Shown piece by piece: positions 35,650 to 61,548 of a stretch of 64,000 nt of DNA. How positions within the stretch are numbered: position 1 is the stretch's first letter; the number at the start of each line of letters is the position of its first letter. The notes under the pieces are model-generated. The model was not told the DNA's origin. It worked only from the letters and a program-made list of their open reading frames with translations, and did no database searches. The stretch is from Tubulanus polymorphus (taxonomy: Eukaryota; Nemertea; Palaeonemertea; Tubulaniformes; Tubulanidae), in the NCBI RefSeq assembly GCF_964204645.1, contig NC_134026.1:24818650-24882649 (forward strand), written 5' to 3'. A program made the translations under genes and the position numbers.

Positions 35650-38600
35650 ATGAAGGTTGTTTTGTTGTGTATGATCGGAATCGGCCTTGCAAGTAAGTCA
35701 GTAATTATACCTGCATTGATATTTTGATAATCGTGAACTGTTTGAAACGGGAACTATTCGACTTTCTTTTAATGTTTACAGCCGGACTTCTGGAGGAATC
35801 GAGCAAGAGAGGTAGGTTCCGCATATGAGAAACGACTCAGTTACACATTTCAACCGAGGAGCAATCTTCCGACAAAACTTCAAAATTTCAACTATGCCAT
35901 TCTGTATTCGAATTCCCCAAATTCCTGATATTTTATCAAATACATGATCTCCATTTTTCACACACGTTTCAGTGTTTCAACCGAATCACGAATTTGTGTT
36001 TGATAATGAAGTGCAAATTGTCACTGGTCTTCCCGAACTTAGTCGTGCCTCGTCTGGTTTGAAAATCAGATCTGTGGTTCGTGTACAATTTCTGGAGGGC
36101 GATCGAGTAGTTTTGAAGGTATCTTTTTCAACTCTTATTTCTTCCACGGTTGCACTCGTTAGTTCCTCCCTGTATTTACTAAAAAGTTGACCAATTGTTA
36201 TGAGTGCCTTTAAAGTGATCGGAAATGTAAACGTATTGCAATTCTTCTTAAGATGACCGCACCACGTATCTACATATTGAATAGAGAAATTCCAACTCAT
36301 CAAACGATCTCTAGTCTGCTACCAGACAGAATCTTCATGGAACTTACTGAATCAATTGCTGAAAAGCTCCGAGCCGATTTGATCAAACCAGTATCATGCA
36401 GGTAGACCAGAATGTACAGCCGATGAGATATCTGTTGGAAGTATGGAATGTATGAAATAATCACTTAATTTTCGTTTCAGATTCGTTGATGGAGCCGTGA
36501 GTGACGTACATGTATCCGAGGGAGATGCCATTTGGTCAGTGAATATAAAAAAAGCACTTCTCAGCCTTTTACAAGTTGATCTCGAAGGAGAAAATACCAT
36601 AGCTGATCAGAACATCCACGCTCATTTATACAAAAAGTCCTTCTCCAAACATTCGGAATTTAAGGCTTTCAAAGTTATGGAGGTATCTTTCGATTTTTAG
36701 ATGTCTACTTTTAAAGATTTTGGACATTTTGAAAATGGCAACTTATTTGGTATCATTCGTTACAGGAAAGCACGGTTGGAAGCTGCGAAACGTTCTACAG
36801 TCAATGGGCGGCCCCAGTGATGTCTGGAGCTGATAGCGGATTGATGGTCGTGAATCTAACTAAAACTGTTGATCACAATCGTTGTTCAAGCGTTCCACTC
36901 ATGGAGAAATCCAATATCAAAGGACGCAACTGTAACGACATTCCGTGCGCAAATGTAAGAAGTGGACACAATTCATTTCCATGAATTACATTTTAGACAA
37001 TCCTTAATCTAAAGCTATTTAACTTAAAACAATTTGATTTCATATAGAAAGCATGGATCGTCAAACCAGGTACCACAATTCATTACAAATTGTACAAATC
37101 TGGCCGAAAATTTATGGTTGATACGGCTGAAGTCAGGAGTCAACTAGTTTTAAGTCCTGTCAATGATAAGATGGGAAGCATCACTACGTTCATACAGTAA
37201 GTATAGTGCGCTTTTTACTGCATCCATAATCAAACAGTTCTTATTTTAAACGTTGATTCTATGCCCCAATCTTTCAGTCAATCTACCAGACTTACTGCCA
37301 TTCACACTATCAGCAGACCGATCTCAGTGCCAACCATGAAACCTGCATCTGAAGGACTCAGAATGATCATACCTGGAATCATGGGGGCAACGGTTCCTAT
37401 GCAAGCACCATCGGCTACAGTCACCGAAGTATTATATTTTGAAGATATATAAATGTCCCCGAATAGATTGCAATTTTTACAAAACATGCATTTTCTGTTT
37501 AAAGATTGAAAGGATTATCCGCTTGATATCAGCATTACCTGAAACAGAGTTACCCAAACCTGAATGGATCATAACTTTGATCAAGGAATTGAGAAAATGC
37601 CCGCTCACTACCCTCAACAGCTTGATCAAACCTTATTTACAACCAAGCATTGAAAATCCCTCCCACATGAGAGTCAGGTTCGTATTTGGATAAGATGTGA
37701 TATGAAATGAGATTTGAAAAAGAGATAAACATTTTCTGAACGTAATGCAAATTTCTCTCAATATCAGACGTATTGTCTTAAACCTGCTGCCAACATTGAG
37801 AACTATGCCAGCTCTTCGACTGATCAAAGCAAGCATTCAAAGTCAACTGATCAAAGACGCCAGTGAAATGTCGTTCATCCTGAGTACCATTCCTGTTACA
37901 TATGAGCCTATGCCAGAATACATCACCGAGATATTGGTACAGTTCGCATCGTCTCCTTCATGGTGTTAACTTAAGATGATTTGATCTCATTTGTAGTTTT
38001 GTTTTACAGGCCATCTGCAAAGATCCATCGGTTATGAAGCAAGTACAACCAAAACAAACTTGTTGGTTGGCAGCGGGAGCTCTTATTCACCGATTAGTAA
38101 TCAGTAATCAGCCAAGACCTAGCTCATCCGACATCCATCAGAGACATTTTGGCAATATTCTTGTAGAAGGGCAGATCACAGCACAAAGATTGAATGCGCT
38201 GAAACGGCATTACAGCCAAGAGATCCTTGCTTTATTCCGCGCAGCTCAATCCGAACCTGAGCGTCTATTGGCACTGAAAGTAATCGGAAATTCTGGATTA
38301 GTTGAACTTGTTCCATACGTTGAGAAGACTATTGCTGACATGAATGCACCAAAAATCTTGCGCGTTAAGGCTATGTACGCGTTACCACAAATGGCAAAAT
38401 TCATTCCACGAAAGGTTGGCTAATGTAGTTCAGATTCAGCCGATCAAATTAAATCTGATGAATACATTTGTTTACTTAATTTATATTCGATTTTAGATCC
38501 AGTCAATTTTGATGCCATACCTGCTAAACCCCGTAGAACCGACGGAATTGAGAATTGCCGCTTACTCGATGATTATGGAAACTGAACCAGAGTTTGCGCT

Positions 38601-41600
38601 GATAGAGACTGTCGCCAATAATCTGCGCAAGGAGCAAAATCTCCATGTTGCCTCCTACATCTACAATCACATGAAACATGTTTCACGATCAACACAACCT
38701 TGCTATCAATCACTGTATGCAAAAGACCACTAGGCCTACATATTCTTGTTCCTGATAAATTTGAATGATTTAACTAATCCCTTTTATCTTCTTACAGAGC
38801 TGTGAAGTTAAAACGCGCTCTCCACTTCGCTAAACCAATTGCATTGAACATTCTATTGCCACAACGGATTCATCTTCCTTATAACTTTGGTAAAATACCA
38901 TCTGCTTCATCCTAATTCCTAATAATGAATCGTCAAAAAATTATATATCCTTTGATAACGATACCTGTTTATACATTTTCAGAAAAACTTGGTTTTTCTG
39001 CCGCGCTTGATATGACGCTAATCTCGACAACGAAATCATTCCTACCTCAATCTGGAAATATCAAGATAAAGACTTATATGCTGGGTCATTCTGTCGATCT
39101 TTTCTCTGTAAGTTAAATCGATTTTGCAATTACCTCAAGTAAGAAGGTTTATTTCAGTTATGTTTACGACTTTGAAAATTTGTATCTTATACAGGCTAGC
39201 TTATACACGGAGGGTCTTCAAAATATGTTAGAAAAACTGATAGGACCATACGGGTCCGTACACAAATCTAAATCAATTTTGGACGTTTTGAAACCACGAG
39301 GAAAACGTAGTATTTCTCCAGAAGATGAACTCAACAATATTAGAAACAAGGTATACTGTGCTCAAAGTATTAATTTTTAATGATAAAAAGGAAATATAGC
39401 AATGGGTTTTTTCTCAGGTGAATATGAAATCAGTGAAACAAGAAGAGTTCAAAGGTGCCATGTATGTCAGCATGTTTGGTCATGACCTGAGAATGTTCAC
39501 AATGGATAAAGAAGTGGTCCGTACTATTTTCGAATCCGGAAAAATTAGAATCGGCAATATTGAGTCTGAATTGAGAAATGGAAAATCATGGAATGTCGAA
39601 AAGACTATGGTTCTCGAAGATGCAATGGTTAAAGTCCCGACATTCGTTGGTCTGCCAGTTTCCCTGAATCTAACTGCATTGGCCCATCTCGAGTTGAAAA
39701 GTCAGGTGTCATTGAGAGTTGAACCAAGTATTTTTAAGGAAAAACGGACACAAGCAATGCCACAATTTGCCAAGGCCACAATTATTGCTAAACCTAAGTA
39801 ATTAATTAAATGTGACGTATCAAAATCGCTTTGAATGATAATTTGTTGATTGTAAGTTAAATGAACTGCCATTTCTTTTCCAAGTTTGGTTACTGATGTC
39901 GAGTTGACGATGGGAGTTGCCATTCCATTCTTGCGTGCTGGAACAAAAGCTACCGTTCAATTACTGAGTAATACTCCTATCAATGCTGAAGTCAAGTACA
40001 CATGGGCTACTAGAAAGATTGAAATTAGTGTTCCAACAATTCAACAGGTACCAACCAACTTCCAACTAACTACGTTTGAGATCTGTGGTGGAAACATCTC
40101 GCTTGGTTCATCTATGTATTCATATTTAGGAATTACGACTAATTGATCTTCATGTAAAACCAGTAACTTTTGTTGAGACGATCACACCTGGATACTCAGG
40201 AGCTCATAAATCTGTAGATATAAAAGATATCGTATCTCAGGGAAGCAATCCTGCATGGCAAATTCAACCTGAAAATCTATACTCCACTCAAAAGGTAGTT
40301 ATTCGCCATATTTACCGTATCAATCATTAGAATACTATTGATTAGATTTAATCCATTTCTTTCGTTCGGATTAGAAAACCATGTCGTTTGGAAAGAACTC
40401 ACTCGGAATTGAATTTGTTGCTGAAATAGAGGCAACGTCACGACCAGATGCTAGTCTCAGCGAGAAGATTTGCCCATGGACTGGAATGAAATCAATGCGC
40501 ATCTTCGCCCGTCCTGGTCACATGACACCGGAAAAGATCGTTATCGAATCAACCTGTAACCCATCTTCGGTACCAATGCAACAGTCGAGTCAATCAAGCC
40601 AATCCGGTGAATCAGAATCGACCGGTCAATCCAGTTGGTCATGGCTTTGGTCAACAAGTGGAGAGAAATCTGAAAGTACCGAAGATCAAATAAATCCAGC
40701 AGCCGGTTCTACACAATCCAGCTGGAAAAAAACCAATGTCGAAGCCGCCGTCAAAATAATGGGAATTAGAAATGGACAAACCGAACGATACGTTAAACTA
40801 GAAATGAACATTCATTCAGCGGGAGCTTTGACGAAGAATATCAGAGTGAACATCATCCGCAGTCCTCTTCCAAACTACGCAGCGACTCCATTTAAGGTAA
40901 ATCTATAGATGCATTTCAATGTATTTCTCATGTTTGAAATTTGAATATTTGATAGAAATGAACGATATGTTCATCAAAAATTTGTTTTAGATTTGTGCTA
41001 AAGGGGTTTATCGACATCCACAATTACCAGTTCCAACGTTTACGCAACCTCTACCAGCTAGCGAAATCAGCCGAACAATGACTTGGGAGTATATGTGGGG
41101 AGAGGAATGTACTGATAGCAAGAAGATCTGGATGCAGGTAACGAAAAGTTTTATAGTTTATACTCTTTATTTGACGCAATCATTGCATAAATCAATCGTA
41201 GGTGCACTCCATGCACCTCCAAATTAACAAGTAATCAAAGTATGATGATTTGTCTCAACAATATCAGATAGTGGTGGTTACAAGTATTTGAATTTAATCT
41301 AACATCGTAGGTGCATTTCGAGAAATCGCAAGAACAGCAAGAGTTCGAGCAGAAAAGATTGTTCGAAAGTTTACCGGAATATCAAATTTGTCAAAAGGAA
41401 AGACGCGCAGGAAGCATCCTAGCTCCATCATGTATGAGACTGAAGAAGTTCATGTATGCTTTGAATCAAATGAAAGTTGAGATTCACTATCCCATAACTG
41501 AGGTATGTTTTGTTTTTGTTTTGTGTGGAAATTCAAGGGGTTTTGAGTATAGATTTATCATATCTTTTTTTAAACATATTCAGGTTCCACTTCCTTTGTG

Positions 41601-42838
41601 GAGAGTTGCCCATGTTGCTCGTCACTACCTAAGAAACTGGCTGTTTGCCAGATCCTGGATCCGTGATACTGGAATTTCGAATACACCGGGACAGGTTGTG
41701 ATACATGCCAAGTTCTTGCCCGAAATGTACAAGGTAAGCCTCGATAAGCTTCTTTCTTCTTTTTGCTTTATGAAAAGCTACAAAATTGTGTGACCCCTCG
41801 AACAATGTTTGTTTCTAGACGTATTGGAAACTGCAAACACCAACAGCAGTAGAGGAATACAGCCACATCCCAATGATGTTCGACCCTACGGCCCTAATAC
41901 CCTCCAGCCATCCGTACGAGTATAATGTTCTGTGGAAACACCTTTCTAACTTCCGATTACCCGCTAAATGTCAACTGACCGCAGCTAATGAAGTGATGAC
42001 GTTTGATGGAATGTTCGCTAAGGTTCCTTCGGTTCCGTGTGAAATGGTTCTTGCAGCTGATGCAACTCCACAACCGAAAATGGCTGTCACTGCTACAATC
42101 GTTCCGCAATCAAATATGAAGGTAACCATTTTCATTGTTAATTTGAATATTGTGATGAGAGTTTCATTAATGGATAATGAATAAGTTTCATTAAGTTGAT
42201 GGCTATATTTTTGGAAATTTGAATTTCGTTTCAGATAGTGAAGGTGATTGTTGATGGACGTATTATCGTTGTTCGTCCATCCCAAAGTTCAACGGTTTCC
42301 CCTGTTATAGAAATCAATGGTGAACCAATATCTATCCTCAGAGAACAAACATTCATCATCCGCCGTCAACCGAATAATCCTAGGTAACCTTCATCAATTA
42401 TTTCGTCGTGTGTCTTAGCTTCCGTGATGACACAGAGTAGTTCGATTGTTCGATTGTCTTTCTTTCAGCTCTAGGATTATCTTGTCAATTCGAATCAGTA
42501 AAGCTGGTGTCGTCGTCATCAACAGCCAAATTTCCCTACTTACCGTAAAAACAAACCTCAAGGACGTAATTGTTAAAGTAAATAAATTTCTTATTCTATT
42601 GTGCTTTCATTCCAAACTTAATTGTTTCATATTAACCGATGTTGAATATTGTTTTTTGTAGCCTTCGCCATTCTGGTTCTCGAACATCAGAGGTTTGTGC
42701 GGAGATTTCAATATGGAGAAAACGGCTGACATGAGTAAACCAACCGGTGAACCTGTCTGGAAACCAGAAGTCTTTGTGCATAGCTGGTTTTTGCCAAGTC
42801 AGCGTTGCACTGTAGCTCCAGTTGCACCCGCCATGTAA
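35650..42838 (+). CDS. Vitellogenin-like large lipid transfer protein, copy A
   Basis: Secreted yolk lipoprotein precursor. 26 exons: 35650-35692, 35782-35811, 35973-36118, 36253-36401, 36481-36682, 36766-36954, 37048-37196, 37278-37428, 37505-37677, 37768-37936, 38010-38414, 38497-38714, 38798-38889, 38983-39107, 39195-39350, 39418-39797, 39885-40047, 40130-40294, 40375-40896, 40991-41137, 41311-41502, 41584-41733, 41819-42121, 42235-42383, 42469-42577, 42662-42838; 1617 residues. Signal peptide MKVVLLCMIGIGLA. The N-terminal lipovitellin domain (about 25-750) has GLPELSRASSGLK and paired Cys. A furin-type site RGKR (782-785) precedes the DUF1943-like part. A Ser-rich, phosvitin-like stretch spans about 1098-1150, and a C-terminal von Willebrand D segment carries GLCG at 1570. 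Frame and phases close throughout. Apolipophorin-type function is an alternative. Confidence 0.9.
35650..42838 (+). repeat. Left arm of an inverted gene duplication
   Basis: Pairs with 46715-54078 in opposite orientation. Exon number, exon lengths (all but the last) and intron phases are the same. Identity is very high from the middle of exon 16 to exon 26 including introns, high in exons 6-7 and 9-11, and low in exons 1-4, late 11, 12-15 and their introns. Confidence 0.9.
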
Positions 42839-43602
42839 ATCGAAGGCAGTCAATGGATTCAAGGCGGATGTGACTTATTCTCTTTCCTTTTCGAATTTGA
42901 TCAGTTGTGAAATACACTATTCTTCTGCCAAAAAGATTATCCAACGTTATACGATTTTTATGGGTTAATAAATTCATTTCATATCCTTATCCTCATGCGT
43001 CGAATATTCATATTTTTGAATTAATGCAGCTCATCCAAGAATTCATTTACGGTACAATAGCTACAGGAAAATTTAGTACGTTATCATCGAACTCGACTGG
43101 CGAAAATACAAAGTAATTGAAGCTGTGGATATATCTCTAGAAAATCCTTTATTCCGTACGATTGCAAATAGACAAACAAGATGCGATGTATTAGAAATAC
43201 AATGGTTTACGATGTAATGCCGATTCGTTTCACCAATAGTTCCCATCGCACCAACATGATTTATATCGTTTTCCGGGCTGGAGCGTCAGTTCCAAACTGT
43301 TTTCGCTTCAGCTCTTCATCAGAATGTAAATGATGTTGGTGATAACCATAGCAATTTCATCTGCTTTCACCGTGGCCCAAACGGTACAAAAAAACAATCG
43401 ACGAAATAAGATACCTTGGAACTATTGATGACATGACTTTAAAGCTCGTTACTTGGATTAGTATTATATTTCCATTTCGTCTAGCTAATGCGAATTGTCA
43501 TTCTCGTTTTCACTTTACGACGATATTTAAGTTCATTATGATTTCACTTTTTACAAAATGATAATTTAGACTATATACACAAAGTGCGGATAAGCATAGT
43601 GA
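42839..43602. other. 3' UTRs of vitellogenin A and SELENON
   Basis: Converging genes. A plus-strand AATAAA near 42965-42970 can end vitellogenin A, and a minus-strand AATAAA at 43153-43148 can end SELENON. The minus-strand UTR holds the candidate SECIS element. Confidence 0.55.
43262..43325 (-). promoter_or_regulatory. Candidate SECIS element, type II
   Basis: In SELENON mRNA sense: ATGA at 43319-43316, 12 bases, then AAAA. A helix pairs GCTGAAGCG with CGCTCCAGC (one mismatch). After the AAAA a ministem CAGTT/AACTG with loop TGG follows, and a 3' GGAA supplies the GA partner of the core. An unpaired AA below an extra ministem is the type II SECIS layout. The basal helix is weak. Position in the 3' UTR, about 280 nt after the stop, is correct. 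Confidence 0.55.
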
Positions 43603-45821
43603 CTATGATTGAACGGCAACTTTGCCAGCTTTATCAACACCATCCTTTAGAACCTGCATGTACCGATACGTCATGCGATCACCGAGACTAAAGAGAAAGA
43701 AAAATACATCGTTAATGAATCAGCTGTTTGATTTACCAAGACTAGACATAACTGACTAACATACCCATCATAATAAGTGTTTTCGGATTCCATATTTTCT
43801 TGGTCACCGAACAATATGTCATTTAAGTTGGCATCATGGACGATCGTTCCATTCGGTAAATGCACCATGATCTGAACCGGGAACCTAGAGAGGTATTCAC
43901 ATGCTCATTGTGAATATAAATCACTGAATAACTCTGAAATCTATATGGATTTTTGGGCACTCACTTGTACGTATCCAAACTTCCGTTTATTCGTTCTTTT
44001 ACTTCTGCTGGTGTTGTCTTATCGTCTCGGAGTTTCTCCAGATCGACGACTAGAGACCAGCTGCTAACAAACTTCTCCGTGAGAAGTTTCTGGATGGGCG
44101 GACTCTCCAGCGGGCCATGTCGGAGAGTTCGCCCTGAACCTATGAAATATGGGAGAGTGTTAAGAAGAAAATAACAGATAGTAACACATATCATATTGCG
44201 ATTATCTTACCTCAGCAGGACTGGTCATCGAGAGCACCCCACATTATAATAGAATGCATCAGCTTATTTTCAGCTTTTGCTCGAGATAGCGCTTCGGGAA
44301 ATTCGAGATATTCAACTTGCTTAAATGGATATAATGCTTTTTCCATATCCCTATCAGCCTCCTTCTGCGATATTTCCTCTGTCCATCTGAGTTGGGGTGG
44401 TGCTTGGATACTGTCTGGTGTATCACTATCCTTATTTTCTGTGGACGGTGCCATCGATTCTAGCTCCATCTGCGGCATATAACCAATCTCTACTTGCATA
44501 CCTTCGTGTTCACTCGGACCACTTAACCATTCCATATCTATGTAGAAAAGAACAATTTTCAACGCTATAAGAATCTTGTTTAATGACGGACATGAATGTA
44601 CGTAGTTTATGGAGAATGTGTCACATCTTACCGACGTTCAAGTTCTTTTTTGCAGGTACATACATATGGAAATATTCTATATGACTATAATCCTTTGATA
44701 TGATGAGATTGCCCGTGAAGTATGCCGGAGTAAACCAAAATGGCCATGCCGGTGGTTCATTGATTTGGAATTCTGCGTGGATTCTAAAACATATCGGTTG
44801 GAATATTAACAACTTAGGAGCATCTGGAAAAGTGCTCAATATCTCATTTTGCATGGCTTTTTCGAACATTTAAGGAGGCTAATCATAATATCTTCTCAAA
44901 TTTGCTTAGTGCAAAATGCATTAATCTTGAGATGCTCACCTGAAGGTAATATCAAGATATTTATCATTTTGCGCACGAACAACACCAACTGCTCCCTGTG
45001 GCGCGAATCTCATCACAGTGAAGGCATTGGGATGAAACATCTTTAGCATTTCTGTGATGAAGTATTGGTCTCCGACAGGAATCGGTGCGTAATACCGATT
45101 ACTTGAATATGTATCTTTATCAGCACGATATATATGCCATACTTTACTAACCCGAGGGACGCGTGTTTTTGGGAGCAATGCGTCGAATTTGAAAGTATCA
45201 AATACGGCAGTCTCGTTCTGGACGGTTTTCCATTCTTTCAATCCGGTAATTATCAAAGGATCGGTCTAAAATATACGTTACCCCAATCAACGACACAATG
45301 TCTTGAAAATATTTGTGAGAAACAAGAAACCTAGTTCATATGCTTCGTGGGGAAAATAGTTGGATTCTTACCGCAAAACCTCCTGTAATATCATCTTGGT
45401 ATGCCTTCATTGTTTCCATGATTAACGGCTTGAAAGAGGTTTTTAGGGTAATATATTCATTTTTATCACTTCCCTTGTGTATGTCACTATGTGGAATCTA
45501 TAGAAAATGTGTTGCTTGTTAAAACATCCTTTATCCCAAACGGTTAACAGATTTGTACCATTTTCGAAGCTATATTACCTGACCAGTTAACTTCTCAAGA
45601 ATGGCACCAAATTCCTCTGGTGATAACTGTCCATCCTCATCAACGTCTAGTGTTGTAAAATAATATGAACCTTGCTGTCCTAGAACTTTCAATGCATCTT
45701 TTCTCTGCTCTTTGCTTTGTTGAAATCCAATACCGGATAATTGTATTATAAGCGACAAAATGGCTATGAAAGCAGCTATGGAAGCTACAGTTAAAGCTGA
45801 TATTCCTGCAGAGGTCACCAT
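43603..45821 (-). CDS. SELENON: Selenoprotein N, with in-frame TGA read as selenocysteine
   Basis: ER membrane selenoprotein that controls redox and calcium handling (SERCA regulation in vertebrates). Exons: 45821-45579, 45497-45372, 45265-44940, 44783-44632, 44537-44211, 44139-43965, 43884-43765, 43687-43603; 517 residues. It starts with a hydrophobic anchor ([20 protein letters not shown]) after a short luminal/cytosolic head, then one EF-hand ([13 protein letters not shown]). Conserved SELENON segments follow: [49 protein letters not shown] and [22 protein letters not shown]. The Sec codon TGA is 44214-44212, one base before the donor at 44210. Upstream in-frame codons to the acceptor at 45864 lack an ATG, so ATG 45821 is used; a non-coding first exon near 46160-46230 is possible. 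It sits between two inverted vitellogenin genes. Confidence 0.94.
44212..44214 (-). other. Selenocysteine (UGA) codon of SELENON
   Basis: The reading frame continues on both sides with conserved SELENON sequence (SC-U-GSGRT), so this TGA is recoding, not a nonsense mutation. Confidence 0.93.
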
Positions 45822-46714
45822 TGGAGGTGGCCCCGCTTTTTTCTTCTTAGTCGACGACGCCTCCTGTAAATATTAATAATTTTCATTCCTTGGTTTTGTA
45901 TATCCTTGGTGATTGCTATAACTCGCATTCAGTTTCAAAGTTGGAAGGTTATACGCGTTCTATGTTGTTGATAGAATATTGTTAAAGTTCTAAAAGAAAA
46001 ACTATACGACGAATTTCAATTTCATTTTGATATTCTGAATTCTTGATATAACGGTAATTTATGAAATTGTGTCGTCGTTGTCAAAATCTAATTATTCTAA
46101 TTTTCAATAGTTTCAATTGATTAATAGAAACAGTTTCAAAGCTAAAAATGTACACAGAACATACCAGCTCGCCGGGGTAGCCTTCAAGCTCTCAGTTCGG
46201 AATTAAACAGCTGAATGAAAATTATGTGTGTAATGTATTTACTTAATAACAACGGAAGTAAATTCAAATATACCACGTGTATTTGGTTGATAAGCAGGGG
46301 CGTTTTTCTCACAGCCAGCTATGGTGTACATGCATTTCCCCACGTGCCATAATCTCGAACCTTATATCCTTATCTTATTACTGCGAATATTATTCGTCTA
46401 CAGGATGAACACTACATTTCTTCGGTATTTTCTAACACAAAAAACTGTCACTTTTTGAGATGGGTTTGCGATTTCATTCAGTCTTCCTCTGGTTTTATGT
46501 ATGACGAATCTAACATCATGTTATCACAAGAACGTTTTCCTCAAAATTGATTAAAACGAATCACACATAATTCATAAACGACATCAGATTTGTTTCATTG
46601 CTTGATAGATATATATTTTATTGAACCATAAGATAGATTGATATACATATACATGCGAAAAGTTATTAGTCCGTTAAGGGTTAGCGCGGGTCTTCTACGG
46701 ATGAATCCTTCGAT
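45822..46714. other. SELENON 5' region and vitellogenin B 3' flank
   Basis: An acceptor at 45864 shows that the SELENON start exon is preceded by an intron. A donor-like site near 46163 suggests a 5' UTR exon above it. No other coding exon seen. The SELENON promoter should lie about 46200-46400. Confidence 0.45.
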
Positions 46715-49700
46715 TTAACTGCTAGTGGTCGCTGGACAGCGCGAACTTGGCAAAAACCAGCTACGCACAAAGACTTCTGGTTTCCAGACAGGTTCACCGG
46801 TTGGTTTACTCATATCAGCCGTTTTCTCCATATTGAAATCTCCGCACAAACCTCTGATGTTCGAGAACCAGAATGGCGAAGGCTACAAAAAATAATGCGT
46901 CATATTCAACATCAGTTAATATGAAACAATTAAGTTAGGAATTGAAATACAATAAAATAACAGCTTTATTTACTTTAACAATTACGTCCTTGAGGTTTGT
47001 TTTTACGGTAAGTAGGGAAATTCGGCTGTTGATGACGACGACACCAGCTTTACTGATTCGAATTGACAAGATAATCCAAGAGCTGAAAGAAAGACAATCG
47101 AACAATCGAACTACTCTGTGTCATCACGAAAGCTAAGACGCATGACGAAATAATTGTTGAAGGTTACCTAGGATTATTCGGTTGACGGCGGATGATGAAT
47201 GTTTGTTCTGTGAGGATAGATATTGGTTCTCCATTGATTTCTATAACAGGGGAAACCGTTGAACCTTGGGATGGACGAACAATGATAATACGTCCATCAA
47301 CAATCACTTTCACTATCTGAAACGAAATTCAAATTTTCAAAATATAACCATCAACTCATTGAAACTTATTGAATACCCATTGATGAAAGTCTTATCACAA
47401 TATTCAAATGATAAATGAAAATGGTTACCTTCATATTTGATTGCGGAACGATTGTAGCAGTGACAGCCATTTTCGGTTGTGGAGTTGCATCAGCTGCAAG
47501 AACCATTTCACACGGAACCGAAGGAACCTTAGCGAACATTCCATCAAACGTCATCACTTCATTGGCTGCGGTGAGTTGACATTTTGCGGGTAATCGGAAG
47601 TTAGAAAGGTGTTTCCACAGAACATTATACTCGTACGGATGGCTGGAGGGTATTAGGGCCGTAGGATCGAACATCATTGGGATGTGGCTGTATTCCTCTA
47701 CTGCTGTTGGTGTTTGCAGTTTCCAATACGCCTAGAAACAATCATTGTTCGAGGGGTCACACAATTTTGTAGCTTTTCATAAAGCAAAAAGAAGAAAGAA
47801 GCTTATCGAGGCTTACCTTGTACATTTCGGGCAAGAACTTGGCATGTATCACAACCTGTCCCGGTGTATTCGAAATTCCAGTATCACGGATCCAGGATCT
47901 GGCAAAAAGCCAGTTTCTTAGGTAGTGACGAGCAACATGGGCAACTCTCCACAAAGGAAGTGGAACCTGAATATGTTTAAAAAAGATATGATAAATCTAT
48001 ACTCAAAACCCCTTGAATTTCCACACAAAACAAAAACAAAACATACCTCAGTTATGGGATAGTGAATCTCAACTTTCATTTGATTCAAAGCATACATGAA
48101 CTTCTTCAGTCTCATACATGATGGAGCTAGGATGCTCCCTGCGCGTCTTTCCTTTTGACAAATTTGATATTCCGGTAATCTTTCGAACAATCTTTTCTGC
48201 TCGAACTCTTGCTGTTCTTGCGATTTCTCGAAATGCACCTACGATGTTAGATTAAATTCAAATACTTGTAACCGTCACTATCTGATATTGTCGAGACAAA
48301 TCATCATACTTTGATTACTTGTTTAATTACTTGTTAACTACGATTGATTTATGCAATGATTGCGTCAAATAAAGAGTATAAACTATAAAACTTTTCGTTA
48401 CCTGCATCCAGATCTTCTTGCTATCAGTACATTCCTCTCCCCACATATACTCCCAAGTCATTGTTCGGCTGATTTCGCTAGCTGGTAGAGGTTGCGTAAA
48501 CGTTGGAACTGGTAATTGTGGATGTCGATAAACCCCTTTAGCACAAATCTTAAAAAAATTTTTGATGAACATATCGTTCATTTCTATCAAATATTCAAAT
48601 TTCAAACATGAGAAATACATTGAAATGCATCTATAGATTTACCTTAAATGGAGTCGCTGCGTAGTTTGGAAGAGGACTGCGGATGATGTTCACTCTGATA
48701 TTCTTCGTCAAAGCTCCCGCTGAATGAATGTTCATTTCTAGTTTAACGTATCGTTCGGTTTGTCCATTTCTAATTCCCATTATTTTGACGGCGGCTTCGA
48801 CATTGGTTTTTTTCCAGCTGGATTGTGTAGAACCGGCTGCTGGATTAATTTGATCATCGGTACTTTCAGATTTCTCTCCACTTGTTGACCAAAGCCATGA
48901 CCAACTGGATTGACCGGTCGACTCTGATTCACCGGATTGGCTTGATTGACTCGACTGTTGCATTGGTACCGAAGATGGGTTACAGGTTGATTCGATAACG
49001 ATCTTTTCCGGTGTCATGTGACCAGGACGGGCGAAGATGCGCATTGATTTCATTCCAGTCCATGGGCAAATCTTCTCGCTGAGACTAGCTTCTGGTCGTG
49101 CAGTTGCCTCTATTTCAGCGACAAATTCAATTCCGAGTGAGTTCTTTCCAAACGACATGGTTTTCTAATGCGAACAAAAGAAACGGTTTAAATTTGGCTG
49201 CGTGACAATTCAATAGTATTCTAGTGATTGATACGTTAAATAAGACGAACAACTACCTTTTGAGTGGAGTATAGACTTTCAGGTCGAATTGGCCATGCAG
49301 GATTACTTCCTTGAGGTATGATATTTTTCATATCTACAGATTTATGAACTCCGGAGTATCCAGGTGTGATCGTCTCAACAAAAGTTACTGGTTTTACATG
49401 AAGATCAATTAGTCGTAATTCCTAAATATGAATACATAGATGAAGCAAGCGAGATGTTTCCACCACAGATCTCAAACATAGTTAGTTGGAAGTTTGTTAA
49501 TACCTGTTGAATTGTTGGAACACTAATTTCAATCTTTCTAGTAGCCCATGTGTATTTGACTTCAGCATTGATAGGAGTATTACTCAGTAATTGAACGGTA
49601 GCTTTTGTTCCAGCACGCAAGAAGGGCACGGCAACTCCCATTGTCAACTCGACATCAGTAACCAATCTTTGAAAGAAAATTTACAGTTCATTTAACTATA

Positions 49701-52700
49701 TACGTTATATTCAATAAATTCAAAGCGAATTTGATACGTCACATTCAATTACTTACTTAGGTGTAGCAATAATTTTGGCCGTCGCAAATTGTGGCATTGC
49801 TCGTGCCCGTTTTTCCTTAAAGATACTTGGTTCAACTCTCAATGACACCTGACTTTTCCACTTGAGATGGGCCAACGCAGTTAGATTCAGGGAAACTGGC
49901 AGACCAACGAATGTCGGAACTTTGACAATTGCATCTTCAACAACCATAGTCTTTTCGACATTCCAAGATTTTCCGCTTCTCAGTTCAGACTCAATATTGC
50001 TGATTGCAATCTTTCCAGTTTCAAATATTGTACGAATGACTTCATTGTTTAAAGTGAACATTCTCAATTCATGGCCAAACATCTTCATGTAAATCATGCC
50101 CTTGAAGGCTTCCGGTGTCACTGCCTTCATGTTTAGCTGAAATGGTAAAGATAGTTGTCTCCAAGTCTTACGTATTCATAACAAATCGAATTGATGCAAA
50201 TACGTGCGAAAGACGAATTCACCTCCAGAGAGGAATATCAAATTCTATATTTATTTTTCAGTTGCAAAAATGCATTATAACATAAAGTTCATCCGAATGA
50301 TAGCTTTATCAAATTTACTGCAGCAATGTACCTTGCTTCTGATGTCGTTGAGTTCACCTTCAGGAGAGACGCTTCGTTTCTGGCGTGGTTTAAGGATATC
50401 TAGAACGGTCTTCGATTTGCGTACTGATCCGTATGGTCCCCACAGTTTTTCCATTAGTGTCTGCAGACCCTCGGTATAGAATCCAGCCTGTGCGCATTGG
50501 AAATAATTCGGTTATCAGATGATTATATGGATGATAAAGAAGATAATTATTAATTGCATCGTGATTTTACCTCAACGATATCAACGGAATGTCCGAGAAT
50601 GTGAGTATTCAGTTTCATGTTACCAGACTGGGGAAGGAAAGATCTACGCGTTGGAATCATGGACATATCCCAAGCACCAGCGATTCCCATAGATACTGAA
50701 TAAGAAATACAGATCTCCTTGAAAATATGGAAATCTCGACATTGCGATATATATCGCTGTTATTCTTACCGGATTTGTATGGAATATGAACGCGTGTGGG
50801 CATCAGAATGTTCATTGGAATTGGTTTCGCAAAATGCAGAGCAAGCATCATCTTTTTTGCCCTGTAAATTAAAATGTTTTAGAATTTGTCTTCAGTGTTT
50901 CGAATGGCAATCAGAGATGGCAATGAATTTGGTCGAATACTCACATTTTAAGGCAGCATGGGTGGCTGGACATAGATACTTGTTTCATGTGGTTAAAGAT
51001 ATAGGAGGCAACATGAAGATTTTGTTCTCTGTGAAGATTGTTGGCGATTGTTTGTAGCAGGGCGAATTCTGGTTCGGCTTCAGAAAGAATGACGTAGGAT
51101 GCAACACGTAATTGAGTCGATTCGATCGGATTGTTCAGATATGGCCAGAGCATTGTTTTTACCTACATGAAAAAAGCGTAATGCAAGATATGTTTCAGTA
51201 TCAAGTCCGGATACAAAAGGGGCACATTATAGGCGAAATGCTACCTACTTTTTGTTGAATAGCATGAACCAAGTGACGAAGGGAATAAATGGCTTGGACT
51301 CGAATTATTTTTGGAGCGTTTATATCAGATATGACTTTTTCCAAGTATGGAACATGCTCAATCAATCCAGCATTTCCGATTACTTTCAGTGCCAATAGAC
51401 GCTCAGGTTCGGATTGAGCTGCGCGGAATAAAGCAAGGATCTCTTGGCTGTAATGACGTGTCAGTGCACTCAATCTTTGTGCGGTGATCTGCCCTTCTAC
51501 AAGAATATTGCCAAAATGTCTCTGATGGATGTCGGATGAGCTAGGTCTTGGATGATTACTGATTACTAATCGGTGAATTAGAGCTCCCGCTGCCAACCAA
51601 CAAGTTTGTTTTGGTTGTACTTGCTTCATAACCGATGGATCTTTGCAGATGGCCTGTAAAACAAAACTACAAATGAGATCAAATAATCTTAAGTTAACCC
51701 CATGAAGGAGATGATGTGAACTGTACCAATATCTCGGTGATGTATTCTGGCATAGGCTCATAAGTAATAGGAATAGTACTCAGGATGAACGACATTTCAC
51801 TAGCGTCTTTGATCAGTTGACTTTGAATGCTTGCTTTTATCAGTTGAAGAGCTGGCATAGTTCTCAATGTTGGCAACAGGTTCCAAACAATACGTCTAGT
51901 GGTAAAGAATACACTCGTAGAAATTAGAATCAAATGCCAATGAGAATATCTATTCTATCTAATCTAATACGAACCTGACTCTCATGTGGGAGGGATTTCC
52001 ACTACTTGGTTGTAAATAAGGTTTGATCAAGCTGTTAAGGGTAGTGAGTGGGCATTTTCTCAATTCCTTGATCAAAGTTGTGATCCATTCAGGTTTGGGT
52101 AATTCTGTTTCTGGTAATGCTGATATTAAACGGATAATCCTTTCAATCTTCAAACAAAAAATGTATGTTTCGTAAAAATTGCAACTAATTTTTTGACATA
52201 TTTATCTTCAAAAAAATAGAATACCTCAGTTACTGTAGCCGACGGTGCCTGCGTAGGAATCGCTGCCCCTATGATTCCAGGTATGATCATTCTGAGGCCT
52301 TCAGGAGCAGGTTTCATGGTTGGTACTGGGATCGGTCGGCTGATCGGCCGAATGGCACTTACTTTTGTCCATTGACTAGAATGAAACATAGAGGGGTTGA
52401 GTTGTAAACCATGAAATGTTGCTTTTAAAGCTATGGGTGGGAGAAAAACGTATAAACTTACTGCATGAATGTGGTGATGCTTCCCATCGAAACATTAACT
52501 GGATAAACTACAACTTGACTCCTGACTTCAGCCGTATCAACTAAAAACTTTCGGCCAGATTTGTACAATTTGTAATGAATTGTGGTACCTGGTTTGGCGA
52601 TCCATGCTTTCTGTAAATACGGAAAAAGCGAACGATCATTTTGCGTACGATAAATATTTGTTGAAATAATTGGATGACAAAATCTCAAAAGAAATCTCAA

Positions 52701-54078
52701 ACTTACATTCGCATACGGAATGTCGTTGCAGTTGTGTCCTTTGATATTGGATTTCTCCATGAGTGGAACGTTTGAACAACGATTGTGATCAACTGTTTTA
52801 GTTAGATTCATGACCATCCATCCGCTATCAGCTCCAGACATCATTGGGGCCGCCCATTGACTGTAGAACGTTTCGCAGCTTCCAACCGTGCTTTCCTGTA
52901 ACGAATGATACCAAATAATTGTAGCCATTCATGAAAATATGCATCACAAATCTTTAAAAAATCTAATATCTAATCTTGAGAGTCATACCTCCATAACTTT
53001 GAAAGCCTTAGATTCCGAAGCTTTTGAGAAGGATTTTCTGTATAAATGAGCGTGGATGTTTTGGTCAGCCATCGTCTTTCTTCCTTCAAGATCAACTTGT
53101 AAAAGACTGAGAAGTCCTTTTTTGATGTTCATTGACCAAATAGCGTCGATTTCTGCTACTTGCACCTCACTTATGATTCCGTCAATATATCTACAACCCC
53201 AAAAAGTGACTTTATTACATTCATTTCTATCTGAGTAATATTCGTTCGAGTCTGTTCTTAGTTGCTTTTTTACAGGGATATATTCCAACGTTACCAACAT
53301 TCCAACATACCTGAATTGAACTGGTTTCATGATATCAACTTTCAGTTTCTCCGCAACTGATCCGGAAACTTCAGTGAAGACATTAAGTGGAAGTGGGTCT
53401 GAAAATGCAGTCGGTTTTGGTATTTCTTTGTTCACTTGGTAGAATCGTGGTGCGGCCACCTGAAGAAGAATTCCAAGCATTAAAAGCCGATTTCATAAAC
53501 AATGTGTCAACTAAACGTATTCAATAACGAAATAACTGTACCTGTAGAACAACTCTGGTTTCATCCAAAAATTGCAGACGAACGGTACATTTTACCTTCA
53601 ATCCAGAAGCAAGTCGACTGAGTTCGGGAAGACCTGTCACGGCCTGACTCACGGTGTCGTACTCAAATTCGTATCGTGGCTGGAAAACTACAATTTCAAC
53701 ACAAAAACATAATTTTCCAAAAACCTTTGAAACTGTATTCAAGAATATTAAAGAATTTCAAGGAATGAACTAAATATTATTCAAAACCCTTTTGAATAAA
53801 TTAGATTTAAGATCAATAATCGTACCTTTTTTCCAGCTGATATCATTATCAGCGGCTAGAAAATAAATGACATTAATATAATCAATATCAAATCAATATG
53901 GAATTATTTCTGCAAATTCTGCTATTTTGCAAAATGTCATAAACCTCCAATGAGTCTTTCATATATGAAGATTCAGTAACATAATCGGATTTTTGCAATA
54001 AAAGATGTGTAACAGTATGAGAAATATTTGCTTACCTGCCAAACAGGCACCAATGAAAAGTAGAATGATAGGTTTCAT
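46715..54078 (-). CDS. Vitellogenin-like large lipid transfer protein, copy B (inverted paralogue)
   Basis: Same architecture as copy A. 26 exons: 54078-54036, 53855-53826, 53687-53542, 53459-53311, 53190-52989, 52895-52707, 52610-52462, 52375-52225, 52147-51975, 51895-51727, 51653-51249, 51162-50945, 50861-50770, 50695-50571, 50487-50332, 50136-49757, 49666-49504, 49421-49257, 49164-48643, 48548-48402, 48238-48047, 47966-47817, 47731-47429, 47316-47168, 47082-46974, 46882-46715; 1614 residues. Signal peptide MKPIILLFIGACLA, furin site RQKR, Ser-rich stretch and vWD GLCG are all present. The last exon has a different C-terminus (FLPSSRCPATTSS against FLPSQRCTVAPVAPAM in A). Exon lengths match copy A in exons 1-25, so both genes look functional. 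Confidence 0.9.
46715..54078 (-). repeat. Right arm of the inverted gene duplication
   Basis: Mirror of 35650-42838; the 3.9 kb spacer between the arms holds SELENON. Confidence 0.9.
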
Positions 54079-59737: not shown

Positions 59738-61548
59738 ATGGATATAGATTCGGAAGACGAAGCCAAAAAACAATCACCGTCGCCTTCCAGAAGAAGAGTA
59801 AGCGGTCAAGAAAGAATTCGTTTGAATGTAGGAGGAACGACGTTTCAGGCCTTACGATCAACTTTGACGCGACATCCAAACACGGTTTTATCAGAACTAA
59901 ATGAACACGATCAGAGTTACGATTCAACAATTGGAGAATACTTTTTCGACAGAAATCCGCTGATATTCTCGTCAGTTTTAGAATATTACAGGACCGGTGA
60001 ATTGCACATACCGTCAAATCTATGTGGACCAGCTGTCCATATTGAATTGGAATTTTGGGGAATGAAGTTTGATGATGTGGCTCCTTGCTGCCAGACCAAC
60101 GTTCTCCGTTACGACGTAGAAGTCCGGAAAAGGGAAGAGCTTCTGCGCGAGTTCGACGGCTTACAAGATGTTGATGAAGTATTTTCAAATCGCGTTACTG
60201 AAAATGGTATTCGATATTGGCGATGGCGTTTGTGGTTAATTCTAGAACATCCAAGGTCTTCAATCGCAGCGAAAGTAAGTATAAGATATTAGAATACTTT
60301 ATTCTCACTAATATAACACATACATATAAAGAAATACAATAGCAATGGTAATGGTAATATAGCAGTAGTAAGTTAGTACGATGATGATAATGATAATAAT
60401 AACAATATCTATAATGAAGATAAAAATAGTGATAGTAGTAATGATAATAATTCGTATATATACAAATTTGGCTTTCAGAGAAATAACAAGTCGGTTGTTA
60501 AATGAAATTAAGTTTTAATTTTTCCATATAGGTATGGTCGGTATTCTATGGTTTGATAGTGTTAATGTCGATCATCATGTTGCTATTTCATTCGAATGAG
60601 AATATGAGAATATTGTTGCCAAACTATATTAACATGAGCGATGAGATTGATAATTACAAAAACAAGTTACGATATTCAAGCCAAATACCGTGGATCCTAT
60701 ACACAGACGTTGTGATAATGGCTATCAGTACCCTGGAAATTCTCACTCGCATTTTGGTCTCACCAAATAGGAAGAGAATTCTGACGTCGATTCTAGGCCT
60801 GGCGCACATAATTTGCGTCATAACGTTCTGGTTTCTAGCCGTTGTGCGCATGTTACCAACCCTTAGGAGAATGCGCGAGAGAGATGACACTGTGTTCACC
60901 GTCATAACTGTTTTGTGGGCGTTTCAAGCACTGCGAATTCTTCGCATATTCGAATTGTCTCGACAGTTTCTAGGATTGAATGTCTTGCTTTTAGCTCTGA
61001 AACGCAGCAAGCGTGAGCTGTTTCTGTTGGTATTATTCATATGTTTAGGAGCGATCACGTTTTCATTCGTCGTGTTCTATCTGGAATTGTCGGCAGCCAA
61101 TGACGAAGGCAAGAAAAGTCAAATAACTACAGTTCCCACCGCTTTGTACTGGGCTGTTATCACGATGACTACCGTGGGATATGGTGATGTGGTACCAATA
61201 ACAGCACCGTCTAAAACATGTGCCGTCCTCTGTAGCGTCACGGGCATGGTGCTGACCAGTCTCGCAATTCCCATTATCAGTAACAAATTTTACCTATACT
61301 ACAACTTCGTACAAGCTCCAGATATACAAGAATATATAAAAACGTTGAACAAAACGTGGCACGTCAGGATGGATCAAATCCGAAACGCTAGACACCACCG
61401 ATATTGGGCCAAATCGATGAAGTTTCCACGTTTTAATTACGTAAATTCACACACCCTGAAAACACCGAGGGAGCCGCAACAACGGAGAGCCTCGGTAGTT
61501 GATAGTCACGTTGAAGAAAATCCATACGCTAACAATCATAAATATTAA
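59738..61548 (+). CDS. Shaw/Kv3-like potassium channel with a reduced voltage sensor
   Basis: Six-TM potassium channel alpha subunit. Two exons, 59738-60274 and 60532-61548; 517 residues. T1 tetramerisation domain about 27-125 (RIRLNVGGTTFQ, DRNPLIFSSVLEYYRTGELH) with the zinc signature H90-x5-C96-x20-C117C118, typical of Kv2/3/4 and absent from Shaker. The selectivity filter TVGYGD is intact (393-398). S2 acid E248 is kept. S4 reads LWAFQALRILRIFELSRQF: aligned by eye to Kv3, the two outer arginines are replaced and the Lys position is Glu320, leaving R314, R317 and R323. The S3 aspartate seems to be His271. The S6 PxP hinge is AIP (424-426). The ATG at 59738 has a good context (AAAATGG). 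Likely a voltage-insensitive or modulatory subunit; this is inference. Confidence 0.88.
60340..60450. repeat. GAT/AAT-rich low-complexity tract in the Kv intron
   Basis: Irregular array of GATAAT, GATGAT and AGTAGT triplets in the only coding intron (60275-60531). Confidence 0.7.

Follow-up and report, generated by a model that had tools for sequence, protein, structure and literature searches.

The question raised by this locus is how two copies of one gene can be near saturation at silent sites in some segments and nearly identical in others. The locus lies in a window of 64,000 nucleotides from the nemertean Tubulanus polymorphus (contig NC_134026.1, positions 24,818,650 to 24,882,649). 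The contig is 31.9 Mb in length and the whole genome 268 Mb; coordinates below are those of the window. Gene A (35650..42838, forward strand) has 26 exons and encodes 1617 amino acids, and its inverted partner, gene B (46715..54078, reverse strand), also has 26 exons and encodes 1614 amino acids. The gene models were built by dynamic programming and finished by hand in some places. They open at start codons at 35650 on the forward and 54078 on the reverse strand, contain only GT-AG introns and a single terminal stop each, and agree in the length of every exon but the last (177 versus 168). The genes are convergent, lying tail to tail across a short, unique spacer of 3.9 kb (42839..46714) that contains SELENON and is outside the repeat. 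The inverted arms measure ~7.2-7.4 kb, of which a portion of ~3.3 kb is highly similar, and arm-to-arm similarity is absent beyond ~42808 / 46736.

The pair is identified as vitellogenin, a large lipid transfer protein, by the order of its Pfam domains, all above cut-off: Vitellogenin_N (aa 26-662, E = 1.9e-83), Vit_open_b-sht, the open beta-sheet (aa 699-985, E = 3.3e-53), and VWD (aa 1423-1588, E = 2.1e-10). The best relatives of the protein among solved structures are lamprey lipovitellin (1lsh, E = 1.6e-30) and honeybee vitellogenin. TATA-like motifs are present at ~35596 and ~54146, ~54 and 68 bp 5' of the respective start codons. The promoters of the two genes are otherwise largely unrelated, the 5' ends having escaped homogenisation.

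The 626 CDS differences between the genes are clustered in blocks. Segmentation of all CDS positions, tested against codon-block permutations, placed the main edges at 36530, 37142, 37315, 38298, 39548 and 42798, separating diverged blocks (D1 to D3) from homogenised blocks (C1 to C3), given here on the forward strand of gene A. D1 (35650..36530, partner 53141-54078) comprises exons 1-4 and exon 5 as far as its middle (aa 1-140), and differs at 170 of 418 CDS positions and 17 of 33 fourfold sites. Homogenisation starts within exon 5, with C1 (36531..37142, partner 52516-53140) reaching late exon 7, minus a non-homologous intron 6, and showing 33 differences in 436 CDS positions and 5 in 52 fourfold sites. 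D2 (37143..37315, partner 52338-52515) comprises the end of exon 7, intron 7 and the start of exon 8, and is again diverged (27/92 CDS, 6/8 fourfold). C2 (37316..38298, partner 51365-52337) covers exon 8 to late exon 11, minus intron 9, with 42 CDS differences in 744, and D3 (38299..39548, partner 50006-51364), which begins late in exon 11 and ends midway through exon 16 (aa 564-843), has 289 in 838. C3 (39549..42798, partner 46746-50005) starts midway through exon 16 and continues to exon 26, taking in the introns; it differs at 1.2% of positions across 40450-42798, with perfectly matching stretches as long as 291 bp, and holds older sub-blocks at 39677-39927 and 40198-40449 that are ~9% diverged and set between near-identical stretches. 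Expressed as nucleotide difference along the segmented CDS, the alternation is 41% (aa 1-140), 8% (aa 140-285), 29% (aa 285-316), 6% (aa 316-564), 35% (aa 564-843), mostly 0-9% in sub-blocks to aa 1060, and 1.2% (aa 1061-1605). Sharp edges fall within exons 7, 11 and 16.

Silent sites follow the same blocks. Synonymous divergence (dS, Nei-Gojobori, 40-codon windows) is ~0.7 to unbounded in codons 1-160, 0.04-0.25 in 161-280, 0.4-0.7 in 281-360, 0.04-0.20 in 361-560, 1.6 to unbounded in 561-840 (the range found across D3), 0.31 in 841-880, and 0-0.12 in 881-1600. By this measure saturation is reached or approached in aa 1-140 and 564-843, whereas aa 941-1605 are almost unchanged at silent sites (dS mostly 0-0.1) and the blocks in between are intermediate. 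In a scan of fourfold sites only, the best segment was 39639-42796, where 4% of sites differ versus 35% outside; its likelihood ratio of 51 compares with a maximum of 12.7 in 300 permutations. dN is well below dS across D3 and most of D1, a ratio that is rough owing to saturation, and there is thus no signal of positive selection in these segments.

The introns were compared by z-score against shuffled controls, in place of identities from gapped alignments, which run too high. Homology is strong for introns 10 and 16-25 (z 12-26) and intermediate for introns 5 and 8 (z 9-10), whereas introns 1-2 and 11-15 have no homology relative to shuffled controls, introns 3-4 are only weakly similar, and introns 6 (z -0.3) and 9 (z 1.8) are at shuffle level, with intron 7 (z 2.5) slightly above. 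Intron 15, which is among those lacking homology, directly precedes the C3 edge. Intron 10 is homogenised throughout (94.5% identical over 73 bp), as are the introns of C3, which by gapped alignment are 88-100% identical apart from length changes, intron 21 being 100% identical.

These silent and intron sites refute the suggestion that a single duplication date, combined with selective constraint that varies from one part of the gene to another, produced the mosaic, an explanation that is left with almost no probability. The coding exons of the homogenised blocks are indeed low in amino-acid change as well, as constraint would predict. However, the block pattern recurs at fourfold sites and in introns, from the high identity of the C3 introns to the shuffle level of D3, and similarity flips in the middle of exon 11, within one exon. 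Since introns 10 and 16-25 track the exon blocks, protein constraint is not the cause.

The sequence-only reading had described two facing 26-exon genes of matching structure across a 3.9 kb spacer around SELENON, and both models are intact, with the start coordinates and the spacer as it gave them. Its further observation that similarity is uneven holds in CDS, fourfold sites and introns alike: exons 1-4 differ as strongly as it proposed, and the edges that it saw in late exon 11 and exon 16 are located by segmentation at ~38298 and ~39549. The near-identity that it saw from late exon 16 to exon 26 extends through introns 16-25, including the intron after exon 22, described as matching nearly base for base and found to be 98.8% identical. 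Its statement that exons 6-7 and 9-11 are almost identical is correct as to the low divergence of the exons, and is amended in that homogenisation begins in exon 5 and spares introns 6 and 9. Uniform divergence, named in advance as evidence to the contrary, was not seen.

More than one homogenisation event is needed to account for the level of similarity in the blocks. Fourfold differences number 29 of 162 in C1 and C2 together versus 13 of 321 in C3 (Fisher P = 1.3e-6), a more than fourfold difference in level, and at least two homogenisation ages are therefore required. Within C3, introns 16-18 (27/243 differences) are also more diverged than introns 19-25 (42/703; P = 0.01). This heterogeneity bears on the converse scenario, in which the inverted duplication is recent and the diverged blocks were imported later from a divergent allele or a third paralog. 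A mosaic of two sequences is symmetric, and at any one block imported divergence and imported identity look alike. Against such importation, a single date predicts equal divergence in the similar blocks, contrary to the levels in C1 and C2 versus C3; several separate imports would be needed; the two genes share little similarity in their promoters and outer flanks; and a search of the family gave only distant paralogs, the C3 segment being present just twice in the assembly. This scenario is accordingly considered very unlikely.

The copy number is two, as the C3 segment has matches in the genome only at these two places. In addition, four further loci with vitellogenin domains are found on the same contig, at 1.38 Mb, 2.89 Mb, 23.0 Mb and 29.2 Mb. 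Such vitellogenin-like loci were rejected as outgroups, with ~22-32% protein identity by tblastn and no match at 29.2 Mb. Because the family members in the genome are this distant, the order and direction of the transfer events are a matter of inference. One scan for stray relatives in prokaryote genome contigs found none.

An assembly artefact, or mixing of haplotypes in one arm, would offer a technical origin for the mosaic, and the sequence-only reading had named an assembly duplicate as a finding that would overturn it. Both copies are intact and have unrelated flanks, so the pair is not one gene duplicated in assembly. The saturated blocks, the clustering of the CDS differences, and the presence of only two copies of the segment on the contig likewise speak against a technical origin, which on the evidence of the assembled sequence appears extremely improbable.

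The alternating blocks are very probably the result of repeated non-allelic gene conversion after an old inverted duplication, as the sequence-only reading had preferred over one recent duplication; block dS, the introns and the existence of at least two ages support that preference. The divergence blocks at silent sites are sharp-edged, introns inside the tracts are low in divergence with the exceptions of introns 6, 7 and 9, and copy number and position are unchanged, with exon lengths in register, as expected for a non-reciprocal process. The coexistence of saturated and near-zero silent blocks in one pair cannot be explained by a single duplication date, by protein constraint, or by crossing-over alone. 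Crossing-over between inverted copies exchanges or inverts material without raising identity, and so does not fit.

In the proposed sequence of events, an old inverted duplication would have generated two convergent vitellogenin genes that then diverged to near-saturation at silent sites. Later, and at several times, DNA-templated non-allelic gene conversion between the arms, presumably while these inverted arms were paired, would have copied patches from one to the other. The most recent and longest tract, a composite of ~3.3 kb, would be the one closest to the spacer, beginning midway through exon 16 and ending shortly ahead of the stop codon, whereas the patches in late exon 5-7 and exon 8-11 would be older or shorter. 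The segments aa 1-140 and aa 564-843, the promoters, and several introns would have escaped conversion.

Introns 6 and 9 are a counterpoint to conversion in its simplest, long-tract form, as they are unrelated but lie inside homogenised stretches. The exons around them are 94% identical, similarity ends at, or a few bases from, the exon edges, and homogenisation in exons 6-9 is largely limited to exons. Simulation of co-converted introns, using the indel ratio of C3 (n = 60), found that such introns would remain recognisable at intron divergence of up to ~0.3 or more. At a simulated divergence of 0.3, a similarity as low as that observed arose in 0/60 cases for intron 6 and in 2% for intron 9, the latter being weaker evidence, as dS in exons 9 and 10 is ~0.2 and introns in this pair evolve somewhat faster than fourfold sites. 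The halting of similarity at exon edges, together with the simulation, is what would be expected if the patches in exons 6-9 came from a spliced, reverse-transcribed mRNA donor, which would also explain the unrelated introns 6, 7 and 9. However, introns are retained rather than lost, and homogenisation includes intron 8, intron 10 and the end of intron 5, none of which a spliced donor could supply. In intron 5, for instance, it takes in the final 23 bp along with exon 6, so the donor there was not spliced cDNA. A spliced donor is thus a very improbable source of these patches. Introns 6 and 9 are likely to reflect DNA-templated conversion that skipped existing heterologies, or separate exon-sized tracts; the skipped introns may already have been heterologous and then either been looped out or bounded separate short tracts.

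A related issue is why D1 and D3 escaped. D1 spans the beginning of the N-terminal domain, and D3, by alignment to 1lsh, the last part of the helical domain together with the first part of the beta-sheet region. Escape by chance, or because divergence itself blocks pairing, is favoured over selection. That selection keeps D1 and D3 apart, as different co-adapted receptor-facing and lipid-cavity parts in two yolk proteins, is unlikely; if it did, the locus would balance homogenising conversion against selected divergence within one gene pair.

Mosaic concerted evolution has been described in mosquito vitellogenin genes, where it was attributed to gene conversion and includes introns in some tracts, and the present pair resembles those paralogs in having some homogenised and some diverged segments (PMC2875236). 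That paper describes the Anopheles copies as arranged head to tail and those of Culex and Aedes as not tandemly repeated, and it does not use the words inverted or palindrome (PMC2875236); here, in contrast, the pair is convergent with a gene between the two copies, and the blocks that escaped conversion are close to saturation. Short converted tracts between vitellogenin paralogs were also found in amphibians by GENECONV, at the protein level, but that case has no inverted pair carrying a silent-site mosaic (PMC8596760). Inverted paralogs held similar within one genome are known from Caenorhabditis (HSP16, F44E5.4/F44E5.5), in convergent or divergent pairs, through a proposed conversion-like process (PMC1803023). 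In Caenorhabditis the near-identity of the arms extends across genes and intergenic repeats alike (PMC1803023), whereas here it is confined to intragenic blocks, with a longer spacer that carries another gene. In mammalian sex-chromosome palindromes, inverted copies around a spacer likewise undergo arm-to-arm gene conversion, reported as GC-biased, and the arms are >99% identical (PMC3723533, PMC8981503). In the present pair identity is patchy, with D1 and D3 saturated where palindrome arms would be near-identical throughout, and GC at third positions is not clearly higher in converted blocks (0.38-0.45 versus 0.37-0.43). A search of part of the literature turned up no comparable mosaic in an inverted pair of vitellogenin genes. 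The locus is regarded as a clear and unusually clean case of gene conversion, a process already known, and not as a system of a new kind.

As a record of repeated conversion between inverted copies the locus is unusually legible, because near-saturated and near-identical blocks alternate in one pair, which allows tract edges to be located within exons. Since introns 6 and 9 escaped, the locus is also suited to asking how conversion gets across DNA that does not match. Ages of such genes estimated from trees or from identity over the whole gene would be misleading.

The coding exons of the spacer gene, first exon aside, were read from the sequence at 43602..45863 on the reverse strand. We take this gene to be SELENON on the basis of its sequence; a Pfam search with two of its exons gave no match. 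It has an in-frame TGA at ~44211 within the motif D-D-Q-S-C-U-G-S-G-R, and the corresponding codons, TGC TGA G|GT TCA GGG CGA, span an intron near 44211-44138 that splits the glycine codon after its first base. Neither an Rfam match nor, in a simple scan, a convincing SECIS hairpin was found in the 3' region, and the SECIS may be divergent or located further downstream. Elsewhere in the assembly, a COX1 search found no mitochondrial contig, and TTAGGG arrays are abundant near the ends of several contigs, with the SL1 leader and TTAGGC arrays absent, which speaks against a typical nematode or arthropod even though introns are ~80 bp. Within the window, positions 60532-61548 hold an unbroken reading frame of 338 codons for a Shaker/Shab-type voltage-gated potassium channel.
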